From a virus: a stretch of 29,267 nt of DNA. Shown here one piece after another: positions 1 to 21,991 of this stretch; positions within the stretch are counted from its first letter, which is position 1, and each line of letters begins with the position of its first letter. A program made the translations under genes and the position numbers. The notes beneath the pieces are model-generated. The model did no database searches. It was not told where the DNA came from and saw only the letters and a program-made list of their open reading frames with translations. The stretch lies in IMG/VR virus record IMGVR_UViG_3300020442_001789, positions 1 through 29,267 of that record; one strand, 5' to 3'.

Positions 1-736
1 AGGTCATACGACCTTGACCCTGAGGTTTCTTGCTGCCACCAGCGGGATTAGGACCAGTGTTTTTAACAGCACGAGAAGAGTATGCAGCACCGCTGTGCTT
101 GCTATCACCAGAGACCATCTTGCCGCCATCAGAGCGACTGTCTTGGTATTCTTTCTCGGACTGACCGTGTTTACCCTTGTAAATTTCGTCTAATTCTTCT
201 TCCTTGACACAGTTAGGGACTTCTTTGCCGCCCTTTTTCTTTGTGCCTTTGGCTTTGTAACCATCCCAACACGTAGATGCTCCCACGTTTTTACGTGCTT
301 GCTTGAGTCCTTCAAGCATCTGTGTATGGAGGTCTTCAATGTCAATACCTACGACTTCTTCCTTAGCAGTTACACCAAGGTCAGCAGCGTCACGTGCTGA
401 TTTCTCTCCTTTCTTACCGACAACGATGTAGCGTCCGTCTGCTTTCTTACCAGTGATAAGCATAGACTCTCCACCTGATTGCACAACGCGACCAACATTA
501 CGGTCGTCACCATGCTCTTTCTTTTTCTTCGCGACTGACTGTCTGTCAATCTTGAATCCAGCGTATCCTTCTACGACAGGCTCATAAGCATCGAATGCTT
601 CCATAACCTTAAAGACTCCCTCTTTGAGTCTCTCGCTAGTGGGGATTGTATCCTCTTCAATGTGATTGAGGATTCTACTCTGCTCTGCCTGAGTATAATT
701 CATCAGTGCTGCAGAGACCAGCATTTCTAATGTCAT
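1..736 (-). CDS. Conserved cyanophage hypothetical protein, possible virion protein (cut by window edge)
   Basis: The first 245 codons are present, from ATG at 736; the 3' end lies outside the window. The N-terminus (MTLEMLVSAALMNYTQ) is helical and followed by an acidic stretch with the word NHIEEDTIPTSERLKEGVF. The middle is rich in Lys, Gly and Asp, with a run KKKKEHGDD and a segment GKKADGRYIVVGKKGEK. A later segment around CWDGYKAKGTKKKGGKEVPNC resembles the low-complexity parts of cyanophage structural proteins. It lies 23 nt downstream of the cytidylyltransferase-like gene, whose stop codon overlaps a late-promoter-like ACTAAATA (761-768), which would fit late expression. No enzyme motif was found. 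Function is unknown; the virion role is inferred from composition and promoter only. Confidence 0.75.
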   Translation of the reverse strand, partial: MTLEMLVSAALMNYTQAEQSRILNHIEEDTIPTSERLKEGVFKVMEAFDAYEPVVEGYAGFKIDRQSVAKKKKEHGDDRNVGRVVQSGGESMLITGKKADGRYIVVGKKGEKSARDAADLGVTAKEEVVGIDIEDLHTQMLEGLKQARKNVGASTCWDGYKAKGTKKKGGKEVPNCVKEEELDEIYKGKHGQSEKEYQDSRSDGGKMVSGDSKHSGAAYSSRAVKNTGPNPAGGSKKPQGQGRMT

Positions 737-759: not shown

Positions 760-1881
760 TTATTTAGTTGAAGCGTTTTTTCTAATCGCTGCGTTGAAAT
801 CTGAGAATTTAACTACCTTTTGGCCAGGTGTCATATTCTGCAGTGCCTCACGGTAGCGGTCAGTGCCTGCCTTCCATGTGTTACCACTGCCATCATCAGC
901 ACTGTAGTTGCTTTGGTCCTTAGTAGTATCAGCAGCAACCTCTTGTGCATGACTGAGGTCGTCTGGTCCTAGGTGAGCAACCTCAGTGACGTGACGTAAC
1001 CACGCACGAATTTCGCTTCCATCTTTCATCTCGAAGATAACATAATTAGGTCCACGATGTACAATGTGACCACGGAGTCCACTGTCATCATGCTCTACAA
1101 TAGCACCAACCTTAAAGATATGGTTGAGCATATAGTAGTCACGGAATGATTCAAAGTCTAACTTAGGAGCATACTGCCATACAGATTCATGGATACCTTC
1201 ACCCTTCTTAGGTTTCTTACCCTTAGCAGGAGGGGTCATGCCTGCAAGCACGTCCTGCATTAGTTTCTTAGAGTCCTTGTATCCACCAGTCCCATGATGG
1301 AATGAGTCGTGATCTCCCCCTTGGGCATGAGCTCGCATCTTTGATGCTGACAGATTTTCAATAGGGTCATCACTATCATTAGCACGAGCACCTGCAGACT
1401 TAATGTTAATAGATTTGAAGTCATAATGAATGCCGTTGTACTTGTTGGTCAACGATTCAAACTCTTTAACTCGGTCATCACCTACAACCATAGTGACATG
1501 CTCATGACCCTCATCATGGAGGTCACGTAACACATCAAATACATTTCTGTGTGCCTCGTTGTTTTGGATTGCGTCCTTATGTTGCTTAAACATCTTACGC
1601 ATGTGGTCCACCTTCTGCTGTGCAGACAGTGGATTCTTCTTGTGGTCCTGTGACCTAGAGGGGTAGATTCTATAATTACCAGAGTCACCACCGTGTGCTT
1701 TCACTGCATCAAGAAGTTTGCCATGACCTGCATGAGGTGGGTTAAACCTACCGAAGGTAATAGCGACATGTTTGTCTTCTAATTTCTTGTCAGCAGCAGT
1801 CTTGCCCTTCGATGAAGTGGAAGGTTTCTTCGCCTTTGCTGCAGCTTGTGCTGCCTCTTGGATGAATTGTAGAAATTTCAT
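760..1881 (-). CDS. Cytidylyltransferase-like nucleotidyltransferase with C-terminal barrel-like domain
   Basis: This 373-aa protein carries the HxGH nucleotidyltransferase signature in GRFNPPHAGH (residues 44-53), a VGDDR segment (133-137) and ENLSASKMR (175-183), the equivalent of the (I/L)SxTxxR phosphate-binding motif. Together these mark the family of NMN adenylyltransferases and cytidylyltransferases, which move a nucleotide onto a phosphate and release pyrophosphate. The substrate cannot be told from the sequence. A Lys/Ala/Ser-rich leader of about 36 residues precedes the domain. After a basic linker (about 218-230) a second domain holds VGAIVEHDDSGLRGHIVHRG, which looks like a KOW/SH3-type small beta barrel and may bind nucleic acid or protein. 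The start overlaps the stop of the ligase-like gene as ATGA, so the two are probably translated together. Confidence 0.8.
   Translation of the reverse strand: MKFLQFIQEAAQAAAKAKKPSTSSKGKTAADKKLEDKHVAITFGRFNPPHAGHGKLLDAVKAHGGDSGNYRIYPSRSQDHKKNPLSAQQKVDHMRKMFKQHKDAIQNNEAHRNVFDVLRDLHDEGHEHVTMVVGDDRVKEFESLTNKYNGIHYDFKSINIKSAGARANDSDDPIENLSASKMRAHAQGGDHDSFHHGTGGYKDSKKLMQDVLAGMTPPAKGKKPKKGEGIHESVWQYAPKLDFESFRDYYMLNHIFKVGAIVEHDDSGLRGHIVHRGPNYVIFEMKDGSEIRAWLRHVTEVAHLGPDDLSHAQEVAADTTKDQSNYSADDGSGNTWKAGTDRYREALQNMTPGQKVVKFSDFNAAIRKNASTK
761..768 (-). promoter_or_regulatory. Late-promoter-like ACTAAATA
   Basis: On the minus strand the octamer ACTAAATA lies about 25 nt before the ATG at 736. It differs from the T4 late consensus TATAAATA only in the first two bases, and similar octamers stand before other genes in this window (4506-4513, 13256-13263, 16873-16880). 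It overlaps the stop codon of the upstream gene. Assignment rests on motif and position only. Confidence 0.4.
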
Positions 1882-3062
1882 TTACCCCAGTCTTTAGCTA
1901 CTGTGAAGTTAGCGCGAGAGAATTCTAATCTGTCTACGAGTTTGAGTGCCGCACCGTCACGGATTGCAACGAATCCTTCAGGGTTGGTAGCACGTAGACC
2001 GTTTTCTGTTTCCAGAAATGTGCCGATACTTTTAATTTGTATCAGTTTATTTATGATTAAAGTCTTTGCGTCCATCAGGTTTTTGAAACCATCAAGTGCT
2101 GAATTCATCATATTGCTATTAGTATTTAGGTATTTCATTGACTCTGCCTTACGGTTAGTCCAGTCTAACTTAGACTTGAGAGTCTTCTTCTTATCTATTT
2201 CCTGTGTATACTTGTCACTTACAAACTTTTTGAAACCGTTTGCCATCTGTGATGAGGATGTAGGGATGACACCACCTCTGACAATCTGGTTGAAATAAAC
2301 CTTAAAGAGTGCAGGTAAACTGAAGGGACCCTTACCACCCTGTATCGTGTCAAGAAATCTACCACCAGAGGCGAGAGACTTCTCAGCAGAGAGAATGACA
2401 GCGTTGAGTCTAGACTTCTCAGCAGGAGACAGGTTTGCTGCTCCATTGATATTCTCAAACGTAGAGGAGAATACTGCTACGTCTCTGACACCCTGCAGTT
2501 TACTTACATCAACACCAAAACCTGCTGACAGACTGTCCATGCTATTACCTGAGTAAGTCGTATGGAATACGATACCCATCTTACTAGCACCTACCTTCTT
2601 ACCCATAGGGGAGTCAGCATTCAACACATAGGTAATGGTGTTGGGTTTGAATTTGTATTCTCCTGACGACTTGGAGAGTGGTTTACTATAGAGCAGGTCA
2701 CCCTGTAGCACACCATCAATAGGCAGGTCCTTTAGATACTTAAGACACAACTTAAGAATGGACCCGACTGTTGACCCTGCATAAAACCTGTCAGCATCAG
2801 CGTCAGAATATACAATCTTCGGGTCAGTCTTATTGAAGACCGACTTGGTGCCGACAAAGAATTGTTTAGTCTCAGGATTCCTACCACAAATGACAGCGGG
2901 TGCACCATCCCACTTGGTAGTAATCTTCACCTTAGACCCACCGCTACCCTCGGTGAGCATGTCACGGAGTGCTTTGAGAAAGTTGATAGCATTGGTGGCA
3001 CCTGCAGACCCTTGGTTAAAGATGTCATCTTCTAGGTGCTCTAGGTGTGTGTTCTTTGCCAT
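1878..3062 (-). CDS. Covalent nucleotidyltransferase (DNA/RNA ligase-like), DUF6267-type
   Basis: This 394-aa phage protein is normally listed as unknown, but it shows the ordered motifs of the covalent nucleotidyltransferases (ATP-dependent DNA and RNA ligases, capping enzymes). Motif I is KWDG at residues 50-53, where K50 would be the adenylated lysine. A motif Ia-like GTKSVFNK follows (71-78), then motif III-like GDLLYSK (121-127), motif IV-like NPEGFV (360-365) and motif V-like LKLVDR (373-378). About 230 residues between motifs III and IV are longer than in small ligases and look mostly helical. No OB-fold follows motif V, so a minimal RNA-ligase-like enzyme or a modified relative is more likely than a complete DNA ligase. 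The downstream nucleotidyltransferase gene is coupled by ATGA. The motifs are seen; the activity is inferred. Confidence 0.7.
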   Translation of the reverse strand: MAKNTHLEHLEDDIFNQGSAGATNAINFLKALRDMLTEGSGGSKVKITTKWDGAPAVICGRNPETKQFFVGTKSVFNKTDPKIVYSDADADRFYAGSTVGSILKLCLKYLKDLPIDGVLQGDLLYSKPLSKSSGEYKFKPNTITYVLNADSPMGKKVGASKMGIVFHTTYSGNSMDSLSAGFGVDVSKLQGVRDVAVFSSTFENINGAANLSPAEKSRLNAVILSAEKSLASGGRFLDTIQGGKGPFSLPALFKVYFNQIVRGGVIPTSSSQMANGFKKFVSDKYTQEIDKKKTLKSKLDWTNRKAESMKYLNTNSNMMNSALDGFKNLMDAKTLIINKLIQIKSIGTFLETENGLRATNPEGFVAIRDGAALKLVDRLEFSRANFTVAKDWGK

Positions 3063-3068
3063 GTCTGT

Positions 3069-3077
3069 ATTATAGCA
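3069..3077 (-). promoter_or_regulatory. Extended -10 promoter candidate (TGCTATAAT)
   Basis: The minus strand reads TGCTATAATACAGACATG, a perfect extended -10 element seven bases before the ATG at 3062. No -35 box is visible at 16-18 nt. Transcription would start at or next to the ATG, and no ribosome binding site is seen, so the message might be leaderless. It lies in the 58-nt gap between the nuclease-like and ligase-like genes. Confidence 0.4.
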
Positions 3078-3120
3078 GGTCTAGAGGGGTGTGGGTAGGG
3101 GGAGTGGACACTTTGACAAC

Positions 3121-4482
3121 CTACTCCAGCTTGTAGTAGGGGGCAGAGATGCTGGACTGAGATGAAGCATATAGTAAGAAGTCTTCACACAGTTGGTCCC
3201 TCTTCTCTCCTTTAATAGAGTCAATCAGATTAAACAGTTGGACTGCCTGCCACTTAGAGTATAGGAATGGGTCAGTCACCTTCTTAGGGTCCTTGAATAG
3301 TTTCTCTATCTCTGCAGGTGTTGACTTGGCATACTTCTTGAGTCCTGCCTTAATGTCAGCAATCATCTGGTCACGATTATTCGTAACCATACGTGCAGCA
3401 GTGGTAGGTATTTGTTTAGCACCACCCAGATGATTCTTAATCAGTAGGTTGATAGGACCAAGAGATATCTTTCCTTGGTTAGCACTAGCACCCTTGACTT
3501 CACCCTGCCATCCTGTCAGTTTAGTGCCACCAAATGTCCTGAATTGAATCTTCACACCACTCTTATAGATGATGTAACCATCTAGTGACTCCTTACCCAT
3601 CTCAAAGCGAGAAAACTGTTGCTCATTCTTCTGCTTCTTATCGAAGTTGATGGGTTTCATTCTTGCTGCAGCGGTAATCTTCTTAAGAGATACACCGATA
3701 GCGATATTCTTTTGTATCCTCTCTTGCATACACTGATTCAATCCCCTGATACTCTCCTCTTCACCTAGACATGCAGGGTCAAATGCAGGACCAATCAGAT
3801 ATATGTCAGCAGGAGACCACTTATTCTGGTCCATTCTGATGCCTTCCTTCTTAGCAACTCTCTTGAAGGCACCTTCAATTCTATCTACTGTCTTACTACC
3901 ACGGTGGAAGACATAGTTTTTACCTAGAGTGGAAATGATTTTCTCTGCACCTTTGTTACAGGAATCAATCCAATCCTCAGACAATTCTCTTCTTAGTTTC
4001 TCGCAGTCATTACGTGCGATGTCAGCAGGGATGTCAAACTTACTTGATGCCTTTCTAATGTTGGCCACATCAAACACTGTGCCTGCATCTGATTTACCAG
4101 TCACTGCTCTCACTGCAGCAAAGACACACTGTGCTGACTCAGTTAACTTAGTAATCTCAGCACCAGCACCACTACCGCCAGCACCCTTCTGCTTGTATAC
4201 AAATTCTGTTAGTGTCCCTCTAGTAGATTCAACTACTGTGCCAGAGAAACTAGATGGTGGCCATCCTCTCTGATACTTAGGGTATCTCAGAGCATCATGC
4301 CAATCGATATTCTCCTTAGTCAATGCATCTTCAATCGCTTTCTTCGCTGCGATTCTATCCTTACTGACTACACGGATACGTGTCAAAGATGCAGACGGAC
4401 TGCCTATGATTTGTGACTCATAGGTTTCTAAAACTTTGTTGGTGGCTAGGAGTATCTCGTCCTCAGTATTGGACTTAGCCAT
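3121..4482 (-). CDS. Conserved phage protein, candidate PD-(D/E)XK-type nuclease
   Basis: This 453-aa protein belongs to no family I can name with certainty. Residues 221-230 read KWSPADIYLI and residues 264-268 read VSLKK. A buried Asp after a strand start, followed about 40 residues later by (S/E)xK in a second strand, is the layout of PD-(D/E)XK nucleases, with D226 and K267 as candidate catalytic residues. A preceding segment, YVFHRGSKTVDRIEGAFKR (190-208), would be the helix that often carries a further acidic residue. A Gly-rich loop lies at 99-108. The protein precedes the ligase-like and cytidylyltransferase-like genes by 58 nt, so the three may form one nucleic-acid-processing unit. 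A CCTAAATA late-promoter-like site stands just upstream. Nuclease activity is an inference from motif spacing. Confidence 0.6.
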   Translation of the reverse strand: MAKSNTEDEILLATNKVLETYESQIIGSPSASLTRIRVVSKDRIAAKKAIEDALTKENIDWHDALRYPKYQRGWPPSSFSGTVVESTRGTLTEFVYKQKGAGGSGAGAEITKLTESAQCVFAAVRAVTGKSDAGTVFDVANIRKASSKFDIPADIARNDCEKLRRELSEDWIDSCNKGAEKIISTLGKNYVFHRGSKTVDRIEGAFKRVAKKEGIRMDQNKWSPADIYLIGPAFDPACLGEEESIRGLNQCMQERIQKNIAIGVSLKKITAAARMKPINFDKKQKNEQQFSRFEMGKESLDGYIIYKSGVKIQFRTFGGTKLTGWQGEVKGASANQGKISLGPINLLIKNHLGGAKQIPTTAARMVTNNRDQMIADIKAGLKKYAKSTPAEIEKLFKDPKKVTDPFLYSKWQAVQLFNLIDSIKGEKRDQLCEDFLLYASSQSSISAPYYKLE

Positions 4483-17693: not shown

Positions 17694-18267
17694 AGGATAA
17701 TACTCTTTCAGATGGGATTCTTTCTTTGACAGCAAGAGCATTCACAAAGAATACTTGCGTCAGACGAGGCTCTTCAACACGTGTATGTGAGTGCCATGTT
17801 TGTGCATCATATAAAATGCACCTGTTATACACATTCTTGACAATGGTAGTTGTCTCAAACTGTGAGTTGTAATCTTCGTATGCATAGTGGAGAGATGCCT
17901 CACCCACATCATCCTTTATAGGTCTATAGAAGGACGTGCCACTACCTAAGTCAGGCCATGGGTCAAGGTATACAACACCAGCGACGACACTATCCATACC
18001 ATCCTTGTGGATGAGACCTCTACCCATCGGGTCAATCTTTTGAAACTGTGTGAGCACAGTGCTGTCCACACCATTCTCAGGTTCTACTACCAGTGAGAGA
18101 AACTTAAGAGACATTTTCTTAAACATCTCATAGTTGATATCTTCAATACGCTCACTCCTAGCACCAGGAAAATGTCCTGTCTTGTTGAAGTCTAGACTGA
18201 GTGCATAGTCTCTAATCTCATCAGGATTCTCGTAGAAATTATCCCAAACAACTAGAGGAAACTTCAT
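17683..18267 (-). CDS. 2-oxoglutarate/Fe(II) oxygenase-like protein, DUF6445 type
   Basis: The 194-aa protein has HKD at 87-89 in GRGLIHKDGMDSVVAGVVYL, a GSGTSFYRP segment, and a distal His in ILYDAQTWHSHTRV (H159 or H161). R168 is a candidate for 2-oxoglutarate binding. This is the pattern of the DUF6445 group, relatives of the small Fe(II) dioxygenases. The first ten residues (MKFPLVVWDNFYENP) are typical of the family. It overlaps the Dam-type gene by 4 nt as ATGA. It lies between two replication-related genes, but its substrate is unknown. Confidence 0.75.
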   Translation of the reverse strand: MKFPLVVWDNFYENPDEIRDYALSLDFNKTGHFPGARSERIEDINYEMFKKMSLKFLSLVVEPENGVDSTVLTQFQKIDPMGRGLIHKDGMDSVVAGVVYLDPWPDLGSGTSFYRPIKDDVGEASLHYAYEDYNSQFETTTIVKNVYNRCILYDAQTWHSHTRVEEPRLTQVFFVNALAVKERIPSERVLSYVI

Positions 18268-19100
18268 TGGATGATTGCCTCAAGTGGTGTAGGAGGATTC
18301 ATCTCGTAGTTGGCAACCAACAACTCAGTCTTACGACGATTGTCAGCACGATGCTTCATGCCATAGGTAATACGAAACTCTTCCTGATGGAAACCTGCAT
18401 ACTGCTCTTTAAGATAGTCATCATTGTTATAAGTAACCATCCACTGATGCTTACAATACTTACAATGCTCAATAAAATCTCTGTGGTCAAACCCTTTATG
18501 CAATGATGCATCAGTCCCATACAGATAACTGTTAATCATATATGGGGGGTCGAGGAAAACAAATGCACCTTCATCATCATCCATAACCTCAGAGTAATCT
18601 AGGTTAGTAATGTGCCAGTGCTGAATCATCTCAGAGATAATCTTAAGATACTTAGCACCACGTGTTGTAAAGTTTTGTCTGGATGCACTCGCAGAGAAGG
18701 ATGAGTTTTCAGTCAACCCAGAGTAAGAACACTTATTAAGAATCCAAAATAAAACAGCTTGGCGAAAAGGATCTGCCGTGGAAATCTCTGCCTTAGATGC
18801 AATGAATAACTCTTTTGCTTTTTCTTCCGACGAGTGGTCCTCCTTAATCCCAACGAGGATGTCAGACAGTTCGTCACCATTGTCGCGAAGGGCGACCCAG
18901 AAATTGTAGAGATACTCATACTTATCGTTTACCCAAACGGGGATATCAGGATGAAGGTGTGTGAATAGTAGTGCAACACTACCACCACCTAGGAATGGCT
19001 CACGAAACTCCTTAATATCTTTAGGAAACTTCGCCAATAGTTTCTTTGCTACCCGTGACTTACCGCCAGGATAACGAAGAGGTGTTTTCAAGAATTTCAT
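18264..19100 (-). CDS. DNA adenine methylase, Dam/DpnM type
   Basis: The 278-aa enzyme, started at 19100, transfers a methyl group from S-adenosylmethionine to N6 of adenine, in most relatives within GATC. Motifs are present in class-alpha order: LRYPGGKSR (8-16), FREPFLGGGSVALLF (32-46) for S-adenosylmethionine binding, and VFLDPPYM (181-188), the DPPY catalytic motif. The ATG at 19100 overlaps the preceding stop as ATGA, so this start is preferred to 19130. The nearly complete lack of GATC in the window raises the question of what it methylates. It may protect phage DNA or modify host DNA; GATC specificity itself is an inference from the family. Confidence 0.88.
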   Translation of the reverse strand: MKFLKTPLRYPGGKSRVAKKLLAKFPKDIKEFREPFLGGGSVALLFTHLHPDIPVWVNDKYEYLYNFWVALRDNGDELSDILVGIKEDHSSEEKAKELFIASKAEISTADPFRQAVLFWILNKCSYSGLTENSSFSASASRQNFTTRGAKYLKIISEMIQHWHITNLDYSEVMDDDEGAFVFLDPPYMINSYLYGTDASLHKGFDHRDFIEHCKYCKHQWMVTYNNDDYLKEQYAGFHQEEFRITYGMKHRADNRRKTELLVANYEMNPPTPLEAIIQ

Positions 19101-19750
19101 AATGTAATGTCGAGTTGTGGAATGTCCCATGGTCCTACATTCACCTTACCAGTAGGGAATGCATTGAAAGAGATGGTCCATCTGTCATAGTTTTCAACCT
19201 GTCTACCTGAGTAGTGCTTCAACCATGCAGGAAACAGAATCAGTTTACCTGGTTCTGCGTCTACTTTTTCATTGATGCCCCACTCAGACTCCATCTTATC
19301 ATGATACCACACATCTAGGGTATCTGTCACCCTTGGTGTGCAAGGGTCATCAAAAAAGGTCGGAGCACCGTCAGTCAGGTAATAGACAGCACTCAAATAT
19401 GACATGGGATGTCGGTGTAGAGGGTGTCCAAACCCACTACCAGCAGGAGCATGGTTACTCCATGCCAAAGTGATTTCTAAATTGTCACAATACAGTTTAT
19501 ACGTTGTGCGATACTCTTGCAAGCATTGCTCAAACCACCCAAACAGTTGGTCTACCTCAGGACACACATCATCTTTGATGGTGTGAATGTCTGGACGTGA
19601 TGTAATCACACCCTCAGGTAGATTAGACTGCATAGCAGGATAAGTCTTAAGAAACTCAATGACCTTATCCGTATTGTGTGTCACATCACAATGATATTCC
19701 CGCAACACAACAGGAAATAGATGGACTTCTTTTCCTTGACTAGCCTGCAT
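19097..19750 (-). CDS. 2-oxoglutarate/Fe(II) oxygenase-like protein, tandem copy 1 (PF13759-like)
   Basis: The 217-aa protein carries GHPLHRHPMSYLSAVYYL with H112 and H114, LILFPAWLKHYSGR with H179, and YDRWTISFNAFP with R190. These are the metal-binding and 2-oxoglutarate-binding positions of the PF13759-like group, in which the first pair is HxH. The extended N-terminal half (helices around FEQCLQEYRTTYK) is longer than in the HxD oxygenases of this window. It is the third in a chain of three related genes, which overlap by 4-11 nt, and it leads directly into dam. The substrate is unknown. Confidence 0.78.
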   Translation of the reverse strand: MQASQGKEVHLFPVVLREYHCDVTHNTDKVIEFLKTYPAMQSNLPEGVITSRPDIHTIKDDVCPEVDQLFGWFEQCLQEYRTTYKLYCDNLEITLAWSNHAPAGSGFGHPLHRHPMSYLSAVYYLTDGAPTFFDDPCTPRVTDTLDVWYHDKMESEWGINEKVDAEPGKLILFPAWLKHYSGRQVENYDRWTISFNAFPTGKVNVGPWDIPQLDITL

Positions 19751-20408: not shown

Positions 20409-21007
20409 GATATGTCTATGTTTGCTATGCCTCCATTGATAGGACCATATGGTAACGCATTAAAGCTTACAGTATATCTATCATCTTCAGCAGGTATAGT
20501 GCAGTGCCAAAACCAACTAGGAAAGATGATAAGTTTGTTAGGTACAGCATGAATCACCTCTTGAATAGGTGCATTCTGGGTGATACCTTCCATTGTAATC
20601 TTAGGTAGAGTGAATAACTCTAGCGACCCTTGCGACCTGTCATGTATCGGGTCAAAAAAGAGAGTCGGAGTGCCTTCAGTAGCATAAAAGTTACCGCTCC
20701 AATACGAGTTAGCATGGCGGTGAGGCTCTTGGGCAGCGCCACGCTCATACTTATTTGCCCACATGGAGGTGATTTTGTATCCTTTGCAGTCATGGTTGTA
20801 ATGTTGGTATACTTGCCTTAAACAAGCATAAAAGTTTATCGCCAACTCATCGAATCGGTGATGTTTGTGGAGATTTAACTCACTATTCTGCACACCTGTG
20901 CCACCCCTGTAAATGAGGTCTAGTTTATCAATCTCTCTAACAACATCCATGTCAAGTTTGAGGTCAAACTCAAATACATTGACTGGATATAACTTATTTA
21001 CCTTCAT
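20405..21007 (-). CDS. 2-oxoglutarate/Fe(II) oxygenase-like protein, tandem copy 3 (PF13759-like)
   Basis: The 200-aa protein shows EPHRHANSYWSGNFYATEG (H96 and H98), LIIFPSWFWHCTIP (H168) and DDRYTVSFNALPYG (R177). It is clearly related to copies 1 and 2. Order in transcription is this gene first, then copy 2, copy 1 and dam. Its ATG overlaps the stop of the N4/N6 methyltransferase as ATGA, so one message likely carries both methyltransferases and all three oxygenases. Substrate unknown; a link to base modification is plausible only from this context. Confidence 0.78.
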   Translation of the reverse strand: MKVNKLYPVNVFEFDLKLDMDVVREIDKLDLIYRGGTGVQNSELNLHKHHRFDELAINFYACLRQVYQHYNHDCKGYKITSMWANKYERGAAQEPHRHANSYWSGNFYATEGTPTLFFDPIHDRSQGSLELFTLPKITMEGITQNAPIQEVIHAVPNKLIIFPSWFWHCTIPAEDDRYTVSFNALPYGPINGGIANIDIS

Positions 21008-21852
21008 TGCAGACGTGAGTTAATCAATTTGGCATAATCACTATTCAATTCTATGCCTCTATAGTATCTATCATTTCTTTTGGCAACTACAGCAGTAGTG
21101 CCACTACCCATGAAGGGGTCAAGGATAATATCACCCTCTTCACTGCCTGCTAGGACACAACTCTCAATCAATTCCTCTGGATACACAGCAAAGTGTGCTC
21201 CTTTATAAGGTTTAGTCTTGATATTCCATACAGATTTCTTCCTCTTCATTGACTTACCATCTTTTGTAGGTTCTTTGATAGAATCTACATCAAAATAATA
21301 ATTCTGCTTCTTACTTAGCAAGAAAATATACTCATGTGACTTCGTGCACCTATCTTTCATGCTCTCAGGCATAGGATTAGGTTTACTCCAGATAATATCT
21401 TGCCTAAGATACCACCCATCAGCACGTAATGCAAACGCAAGCATCCAAGGGATGCCAATCAGGTCTTTTTCCTTCAGTCCTTCTAGTTTATTGCCACGTC
21501 TAGCACATTCTTGAGGTTGGTCGCGTAGAGTTTTGGAAACTGACTGCTTTACAACTGCTTGTCCTTTACCTGGCCTGTAATTGTAGTAACTATCTCCAAT
21601 GTTTACCCACAATGTGCCGTCATCAGTGAGACAATCTCTCACTTTTCTAAAAATTTCTACAAGATTCTTGATGTATTCTTCTGGTGTCTGCTCTACTCCT
21701 ACCTGACCTTCTTGGTCACCATAATTCCTCATGCCATAGTAAGGAGGAGAGGTCACACACATACGACACTTCAAATCAACCTCAGCATACACATTAAGTG
21801 CATACTTTGCATCGCCAAAAAGAGTTACATCTCTCATAGTATCAGTCATCAT
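21004..21852 (-). CDS. DNA N4-cytosine/N6-adenine methyltransferase (class beta)
   Basis: The 282-aa enzyme, starting at 21852, has the motifs of class-beta DNA methyltransferases in permuted order: VTSPPYYGMRNYG (33-45), where TSPPY is the catalytic motif IV, and later ILDPFMGSGTTAVVA (243-257), the S-adenosylmethionine-binding motif I. TSPPY is most often seen in N4-cytosine enzymes but also occurs in N6-adenine enzymes, so the base is open. No target-recognition domain can be named. It overlaps the PsbN-like ORF upstream by 11 nt and copy 3 downstream by 4 nt. An alternative start is ATG 21837. No restriction nuclease lies beside it, so it looks like a stand-alone enzyme. Confidence 0.88.
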   Translation of the reverse strand: MMTDTMRDVTLFGDAKYALNVYAEVDLKCRMCVTSPPYYGMRNYGDQEGQVGVEQTPEEYIKNLVEIFRKVRDCLTDDGTLWVNIGDSYYNYRPGKGQAVVKQSVSKTLRDQPQECARRGNKLEGLKEKDLIGIPWMLAFALRADGWYLRQDIIWSKPNPMPESMKDRCTKSHEYIFLLSKKQNYYFDVDSIKEPTKDGKSMKRKKSVWNIKTKPYKGAHFAVYPEELIESCVLAGSEEGDIILDPFMGSGTTAVVAKRNDRYYRGIELNSDYAKLINSRLQ

Positions 21853-21991
21853 GGTCGTCAAATGGGTCATCAAGTCCTTCGTTTGCAAAGAATCCTCGAT
21901 AGACACCATAAGCAGCAATCAACACGGTGATAACCATAATGGAAATCGGAAACGTGATGTTGGGGTCAAAGTTGTAATGGGGAATCATCAT
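21842..21991 (-). CDS. psbN-like: PsbN-like small membrane protein (49 aa)
   Basis: A 49-codon ORF starts at ATG 21991, overlapping the gp44 stop as ATGA, and ends at 21842 inside the methyltransferase start. The product has a membrane helix (FPISIMVITVLIAAYGVY) and an acidic tail EGLDDPFDDHDD. Cyanobacterial PsbN, a small thylakoid protein needed for photosystem II assembly, has a single helix followed by a Tyr-containing turn and ends LRDPFEEHGD, so both layout and tail match. The leader before the helix (MMIPHYNFDPNIT) is longer than in PsbN. This is the best hint in the window of a photosynthesis-related function. The likeness is by eye over a short chain. Confidence 0.65.
   Translation of the reverse strand: MMIPHYNFDPNITFPISIMVITVLIAAYGVYRGFFANEGLDDPFDDHDD

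Follow-up and report, generated by a model that had tools for sequence, protein, structure and literature searches.

A putative head-packed enzyme set with an interchangeable nuclease-like gene in marine T4-like phages

The internal head proteins IPI, IPII, IPIII and Alt of phage T4 are directed to the head by a capsid-targeting sequence (CTS) and cut by gp21. In marine T4-like cyanophages an HxGH nucleotidyltransferase gene belongs to the core genes; reports since 2010 list its product among the virion proteins, with no mechanism given. The protein was found by proteomics in virions of S-SM1 (T4-GC190; PMC3037559), S-SCSM1 (ORF91; PMC9602691), S-SZBM1 (S-SZBM1_140; PMC9146016) and S-CREM2 (ORF154; PMC10665884), with a warning from the authors of the proteome papers that such enzymes were possibly carried over in CsCl purification. 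Here, the HxGH gene was analyzed together with two genes that accompany it in a 29,267-nucleotide stretch of viral DNA (IMG/VR record IMGVR_UViG_3300020442_001789), hereafter referred to as the window. DUF6267, the family of one of the accompanying proteins, was not mentioned in the literature searched.

The original prediction had described three consecutive genes, the last two coupled through ATGA. Inspection of ORFs and motifs confirmed three intact genes in one direction, and the overlap is present. The features are:

3121..4482, minus strand: nuclease-like protein of the phrog_1462 family, occupant of the swappable slot, 453 aa
3805..3807, minus strand: D226 codon, putative metal-binding Asp of the nuclease, in KWSPADI
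3682..3690, minus strand: S265-L266-K267 codons, putative (D/E)xK-type element of the nuclease
1878..3062, minus strand: DUF6267 (PF19782), RNA-ligase-like covalent nucleotidyltransferase (predicted), 394 aa
2904..2915, minus strand: motif I KWDG of DUF6267, with Lys50 the putative nucleotide-accepting lysine
1878..1881, minus strand: ATGA start/stop overlap of the DUF6267 and HxGH genes; the minus strand reads ..GGGGTAAATGAAATTTCTA..
760..1881, minus strand: HxGH nucleotidyltransferase (T4-GC190 / phrog_395) with a separate C-terminal domain, 373 aa
1855..1881, minus strand: putative capsid-targeting sequence MKFLQFIQE with an (I/L)xE prohead-protease-type site
1723..1752, minus strand: GRFNPPHAGH signature of the HxGH fold
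2..736, minus strand: downstream gene, 3′ end cut off at the window edge; its homologue S-SZBM1_139 was detected in virions

The order of the three genes is kept across marine T4-like phages, many cyanophages among them, and DUF6267 is followed by the HxGH gene in 110 of the 113 loci with enough flank. In S-PM2 the two are fused, with the HxGH domain behind DUF6267. Neither scattering of homologues nor loss of the nuclease and ligase motifs in most relatives, the outcomes named in advance as damaging to the prediction, was found. With PADLOC the window proteins matched no defence system convincingly, and a PDB sequence search with each of the three revealed no relative.

The middle protein was assigned to DUF6267 with a Pfam E-value of 9e-125. 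It carries the signature of covalent nucleotidyltransferases (KxDG motif I and motifs III, IV and V), and the ligase-type residues K50, D52, G53, Q120, D122, E362, G363, V365 and K374 are identical in 87/87 diverse relatives. Foldseek alone found no significant PDB match for the AlphaFold model (pLDDT 87). VIA-align of the same model placed RNA ligases at all of ranks 1–21, the best being the Naegleria RNA ligase with a Z of 8.8. The predicted fold is RNA-ligase-like, that of a ligase-type nucleotidyltransferase, as originally proposed; neither an OB-fold nor an Rnl2-type C-terminal domain is apparent.

The nuclease-like protein belongs to a family annotated as unknown function. The E..D..(D/E/S)xK catalytic motif of PD-(D/E)XK enzymes is present, with E115, P224, D226 and S265-L266-K267 identical in 61/61 diverse relatives, and the secondary structure is compatible with a PD-(D/E)XK core. 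Pfam profiles and the PDB sequence search showed no sequence homology to a known PD-(D/E)XK member, and Foldseek alone gave no significant match of the model in the PDB. The PDB fold matches obtained (RsfS/terminal-NTase-like) cover residues 5–100 alone and, being limited to the N-terminal ~100 residues, are uninformative on the nuclease core. The protein is assigned as a putative PD-(D/E)XK nuclease, in agreement with the prediction, on the basis of the motif, the secondary structure and the related families described below.

The position in front of DUF6267 is a slot at which eight families with nuclease-type motifs replace one another while the ligase-like gene stays unchanged; the DUF6267 tree shows 40 or more changes of state. 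A gene-for-gene swap was seen between flanks 98% and 95% identical, and swapping is also found in isolates. A D..(S/E)xK element is conserved in all eight families, compared with 3 of 23 control families; most slot families have S in place of the first D/E of (D/E)xK. One of them, S6, is related to type II restriction enzymes (8.9e-16), while the others are not assignable to these enzymes by sequence. In hhalign comparisons among slot families, S1–S7 scored 93% at the motif and NUC–S7 83% in another region; none of the remaining pairs was significant. A PDB sequence search with four slot proteins found no relative. Such exchange of unrelated nuclease-like genes is more in keeping with attack or conflict than with repair.

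The third protein matches Pfam CTP_transf_like (E 1.5e-9) and contains both HxGH signatures, GxFxPxHxGH (as GRFNPPHAGH) and S/TxxR (as SASKMR), which bears out its predicted class. Its N-terminus, MKFLQFIQEA, is nearly the T4 IPII/IPIII sequence MKTYQEFIAEA. When CTS rules were taken from PMC9026906, this was the only one of the three proteins to begin with a T4-type propeptide (9–10 residues, aromatic/hydrophobic positions, E at the cleavage site). A CTS stands at the start of 142 of 187 HxGH ORFs versus 20 of 1960 other genes. It is kept among HxGH proteins only ~40% identical, and the linker behind it is not conserved. S-SM1 and S-PM2 provide a natural contrast: the HxGH protein of the former carries a CTS and was detected in virions, whereas the S-PM2 fusion lacks one and was not detected in virions of that phage. 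Head packaging of the HxGH protein is well supported, by the CTS and by proteomics of four relatives. The CTS would explain the route of this protein into virions and offers a simple rule for finding further head-packed proteins in abundant marine viruses.

The nuclease-like and DUF6267 proteins may be packaged as well. The nuclease homologue SSCSM1_90 is labelled a virion protein, and DUF6267 of pelagiphage-type phages bears its own CTS. The majority of slot nucleases, and of DUF6267 proteins from cyanophages, lack a CTS, which counts against packaging of the whole kit, and the published S-SZBM1 virion list does not include its DUF6267 and slot proteins (PMC9146016).

A late-promoter motif was found upstream of 97 of 188 slot genes, versus 183 of 1045. 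The window's own nuclease gene has no exact late-promoter motif in front, only CCTAAATA. In its pelagiphage-type versions the locus also includes kinases with a CTS and a domain of Polbeta type. The companions there are a P-loop kinase (AAA_33/zeta-toxin-like), a CTS-tagged adenylate kinase and a Polbeta-type NTase fused to HxGH; pelagiphage HxGH proteins are multidomain, with Polbeta, P-loop kinase and ATP-grasp domains.

The capsid-targeting sequence, the hot-swapped slot and the late-promoter enrichment with CTS-tagged pelagiphage companions go beyond the original prediction. We see an even chance that the nucleic-acid-processing enzymes of this locus form a late-expressed set, which is at least partly packed into the head and delivered to the host with the DNA, and in which the nuclease is interchangeable. 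The putative capsid label of the HxGH protein, combined with the repeated nuclease swap, suggests that a kit is delivered with viral DNA and attacks or processes host nucleic acids. Judging from motif statistics, transcription would be late, its promoter lying at the nuclease gene. The HxGH enzyme would be brought to the prohead by its CTS and trimmed after (I/L)xE by a gp21-type protease. In pelagiphage-type phages DUF6267 would follow by means of its own CTS, whereas in cyanophages it would do so by associating with the HxGH protein. At infection, the nuclease may cut host or rival nucleic acid, and the RNA-ligase-fold and HxGH enzymes may modify or rejoin ends or nucleotides to the incoming phage's profit. 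Frequent swapping may occur because the target of the nuclease, or its inhibitors, change. More tentatively, the heads of T4-like marine phages could hold a polymorphic nuclease weapon, in which a swappable restriction-type nuclease is coupled to an unchanging enzyme of RNA-ligase fold and to the HxGH transferase with its capsid tag. It would be delivered as infection begins, to act on nucleic acid of the host or of rival phages. The swappable slot suggests an oceanic arms race or competition between phages, which can be tested with cultured phages that have alike flanks and differing nucleases.

The set had been proposed to be an end-processing or repair system. Its enzymes with intact motifs, their kept order and the end-processing-type companions in pelagiphage types speak for this proposal; a free repair operon, however, is not supported as stated. 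In such an intracellular operon, RNA or DNA broken by host defence nucleases would be healed by the companions and resealed by the ligase-like protein, with the nuclease trimming ends. The RNA-ligase-like predicted fold agrees with this, and the pelagiphage-type kinase, adenylate kinase and Polbeta-type NTase resemble phage RNA-repair parts (PMC7824862). We nevertheless consider it unlikely, because the HxGH protein has a CTS-like start and is found in virions, late promoters are enriched, and unrelated nuclease families replace each other beside a constant ligase. A head-packed repair kit would reconcile the repair and packaging views.

Pure NAD+ salvage, a head-assembly factor and a homing site were also considered and ranked below the packaged kit. 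Less probable than the repair operon is NAD+ supply or counter-defence, with the HxGH protein acting as NMN adenylyltransferase, perhaps to recycle the NMN left by a ligase-like partner that uses NAD+, and the nuclease a separate passenger. The best NCBIfam trend of the HxGH protein is indeed nicotinate-nucleotide adenylyltransferase (TIGR00482, E 8e-7), at 29 bits below the cut-off of 112; the S-PM2 fusion would suit such a pair, and the CTS-tagged adenylate kinase of pelagiphage types could recycle AMP. But HxGH members act on many substrates, no phosphoribosyltransferase occurs among the three genes or the scanned neighbours, and the nuclease slot is left unexplained. The passages found in a published survey of NAD+-ADPr systems contain no mention of the three-gene set. 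A role as structural or packaging factors in head assembly, with the nuclease acting like T4 gp4 or gp49, is improbable: virion location and neighbouring genes, some annotated as virion or head proteins, are in line with it, but catalytic motifs are invariant and the nuclease is replaced by unrelated families and missing in P-RSM6. Least probable is that selfish or homing-type nucleases, functionally unrelated to DUF6267 and HxGH, use the slot as a landing site; this would account for gene-for-gene replacement at one place between nearly identical flanks but not for a slot nearly always filled, with a late-promoter motif, operon-like tight spacing and the same motif class each time.

Compared with known systems, the putatively packaged enzyme set resembles the phage NAD+ reconstitution pathways NARP1 and NARP2 in that a phage encodes an NMNAT-like enzyme of the HxGH type, which NARP2 also includes, but its HxGH protein is virion-packed and has no phosphoribosyltransferase partner. 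With type II restriction endonucleases it shares the S6 match and the D..(S/E)xK element of every slot family; unlike them, the module is without a cognate methyltransferase. T4 RNA repair (Pnkp, RnlA/RnlB) and the RlaP sets of jumbo phages (PMC7824862) likewise include an RNA-ligase-fold protein, joined in pelagiphage types by a kinase and a Polbeta-type NTase, but the present locus differs in its capsid tag, its signals for late expression, its HxGH enzyme and a nuclease that varies, and ligation is here predicted. Polyvalent, head-packaged caudovirus effectors (PMC5512222) are also virion-delivered enzymes of nucleic acids or nucleotides, and the multidomain HxGH proteins of pelagiphages recall them; in cyanophages, in contrast, the genes are separate, the tag is a T4-type CTS instead of a MuF/portal fusion and one dedicated position is reserved for a swappable nuclease. 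Finally, the T4 internal proteins offer a parallel in the N-terminal MKxFxxFIxEA propeptide, varied cargo under one tag, presence in virions and arms-race diversification. They differ from the present cargo, a nucleotidyltransferase accompanied by RNA-ligase-like and nuclease-like proteins, whose cleavage and injection are putative.

The virus record, 29,267 bases long and identical with the window, is a T4-like cyanophage (Kyanoviridae), as placed by its nearest relatives P-TIM40, S-SZBM1, S-WAM1 and P-RSM6. Downstream of gp43, uvsX, gp41 and mazG homologues it carries three ORFs, in transcription order:

3121-4482, minus strand: NUC, a nuclease-like protein
1878-3062, minus strand: DUF6267 protein
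760-1881, minus strand: HxGH protein, an HxGH nucleotidyltransferase

The last two genes share an ATGA overlap.

The middle protein was assigned to DUF6267 (PF19782, E 9e-125). Residues K50, D52, G53 (KWDG), Q120, D122 (QGD), E362, G363, V365 (EGFV) and K374 were kept in 87 of 87 relatives and, judging from sequence, correspond to the covalent-nucleotidyltransferase motifs I, III, IV and V. VIA-align with the structural model (pLDDT 87) placed RNA ligases at ranks 1-21, with Z of 8.8 for Naegleria RNA ligase, 7.6 for T. brucei REL1, 7.1 for T4 Rnl1 and 7.0 for T4 Rnl2, values (7-9) that are moderate taken alone; Foldseek alone found no significant match to this model. Since the top VIA-align rows are uniform in identity and are joined by the motifs, we regard the protein as RNA-ligase-like; it would carry out ligation or another nucleotidyl transfer. 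The model contains a helical insert (~213-340), and neither an OB domain nor an Rnl2-type C-terminal domain was evident.

NUC is a member of phrog_1462, a family of unknown function. Its residues E115, P224, D226 and S265-L266-K267, unchanged in 61 of 61 relatives with identity down to ~15%, appear to be the E..(P)D..SxK pattern of a PD-(D/E)XK nuclease, with Ser opening the last motif. In the AlphaFold model (pLDDT 90) E115 lies within a long helix and SLK at a strand end. PDB searches with this model gave matches to residues 5-100 only, so the nuclease fold is putative.

The genes are linked. HxGH followed DUF6267 in 110 of 113 loci with enough flank (~90 directly adjacent), and NUC preceded HxGH in 63 of 66, whether or not DUF6267 stood between them. 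Phage-isolate records contained DUF6267 (468) and HxGH (531); for the window's NUC, tblastn gave only 54. In S-PM2 (record LN828717) DUF6267 and HxGH are a single 591-aa protein, and one profile, phrog_455, spans both domains. The resequenced S-PM2 record has this fusion as one ORF and the older one splits it into two genes (L310:2992-4767 vs L090:6992-8771).

At loci without NUC, the gene position before DUF6267 (the slot) was mostly taken by a member of seven further families, named S1 to S7. Non-redundant loci arranged as X > DUF6267 > HxGH each had a single slot gene: NUC (33), S1 (22), S2 (17), S3 (16), S4 (12), S6 (11), S7 (9) or S5 (8); 46 further loci had NUC > HxGH without DUF6267. 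A D..(S/E)xK element was strongly conserved in 8/8 slot families vs 3/23 control families, the three being long, highly conserved enzymes. For S6, the region around the motif matched a model of type II restriction enzymes (8.9e-16). In profile comparison S1 aligned with S7 at the motif (93%), and NUC with S7 at a region other than the motif (83%). Viral structure matches at 15-24% identity agree in length with the slot proteins from S-RIM14, S-RIM8 and P-SSM3, three proteins that the NUC profile also matched. Slot proteins may act as nucleases on a presumed target.

A tree built from 137 DUF6267 sequences shows at least 40 changes of slot state, with unrelated slot genes even in DUF6267 pairs up to 93.7% identical. 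Two loci, L066 and L067, have a DNA identity of 98.1% ahead of the slot gene and 94.9% behind it, yet one carries S6 and the other S4. Because isolates differ likewise (S4 in P-TIM40, S3 in S-SZBM1 and S-WAM1, S2 in S-SM1), the swapping is not just a matter of metagenome assembly. A slot gene of that size was absent in P-RSM6.

The T4-type late-promoter motif, NATAAATA, stood no more than 90 bases ahead of 97 of 188 slot genes, as against 54 of 189 HxGH genes, 34 of 168 DUF6267 genes and 183 of 1045 other genes. At the NUC gene of the window itself there is a near match only, CCTAAATA. The window also encodes two DNA methyltransferases (phrog_56 and phrog_67; 18264-19130 and 21004-21918, minus strand); should the slot nuclease be restriction-like, these enzymes could give the phage protection.

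The HxGH protein contains GRFNPPHAGH and SASKMR. Its best NCBIfam score, far under the NaMN adenylyltransferase cut-off, does not point to a particular substrate. The N-terminus, MKFLQFIQEAAQ, resembles MKTYQEFIAEA, the start of T4 IPII and IPIII and a known capsid-targeting sequence (CTS), in which positions 4 and 7 count for targeting and 8 and 10 for processing (PMC9026906). Relatives of ~40% identity have CTS-like starts (S-SCSM1 MKSFLQFLKEA, P-SSM7 MKKFSAFLTEA, S-CREM1 MKRYTNFLSEA, S-SM1 MKKFSAFLNEA), followed by a linker without conservation. A fixed CTS pattern was found in 142/187 HxGH ORFs vs 20/1960 other genes of the same loci (Fisher p ~1e-157, related sequences not being independent); the majority of HxGH ORFs that it missed start similarly, e.g. 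MIRFHTFITEA. We infer that the sequence functions as a CTS and is cleaved; a literature search found nothing tying this protein (T4-GC190) to a CTS. The HxGH protein's small C-terminal domain also stands alone (L089:9896-10174, Syn1_162, and T4-GC534 records), annotated, apparently wrongly, as 'ribonucleotide reductase alpha subunit' or 'NrdB'.

The HxGH family, a cyanophage core gene, has been detected by others in virions of S-SM1 (PMC3037559), S-SCSM1 (ORF91, PMC9602691), S-SZBM1 (_140, along with the downstream product _139, PMC9146016) and S-CREM2 (ORF154, PMC10665884), carry-over being regarded as possible by the proteome authors. The NUC homologue SSCSM1_90 is labelled 'virion protein' in the S-SCSM1 record. 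S-PM2 encodes T4-GC190, yet it was undetected in S-PM2 virions (PMC3037559, 2010); the S-PM2 fusion is without a CTS. A serine/threonine kinase-annotated protein of S-CRM01 (g130, L312:2684-5149) has the CTS-like start MISFDQFLSEKK; since such kinases were reported from S-CRM01 virions (PMC10665884), the CTS rule may predict further virion cargo.

Pelagiphage-type DUF6267 proteins often have a CTS-like start, e.g. MQSFKQYLSEARNTHLEH (MAKNTHLEH in the window), the strict pattern occurring in 14 of 161 distinct DUF6267 sequences. Between DUF6267 and HxGH such loci have a CTS-tagged adenylate kinase (PF00406, 3e-40) and a P-loop kinase (AAA_33 / zeta-toxin). The adenylate kinase is an unusual capsid cargo (L197:7783-8346; similar in L209, L219, L223, L228 and L230). 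HxGH is fused there to a Polbeta-type NTase domain, a P-loop kinase, or ATP-grasp plus protease-like domains, the Polbeta and HxGH matches being near or under the Pfam cut-off; a 1047-aa protein (L222:5531-8674) combines HxGH, RimK-like ATP-grasp and Zn-protease-like domains.

The reading we favour, at about even chances, is a head-delivered kit for nucleic-acid processing with an interchangeable nuclease. DUF6267 and the nuclease would be packaged together with HxGH, and the kit proteins injected. The original prediction, a nucleic-acid end-processing or repair system, finds a place within such a kit. Companion parts of the pelagiphage type also occur in phage RNA repair (PMC7824862) and are similar to polyvalent proteins packaged in heads (PMC5512222). 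T4 CTS cargo, polyvalent injected proteins and phage RNA repair are each known in principle; a literature search found no description of them combined, with one position reserved for a hot-swapped nuclease.
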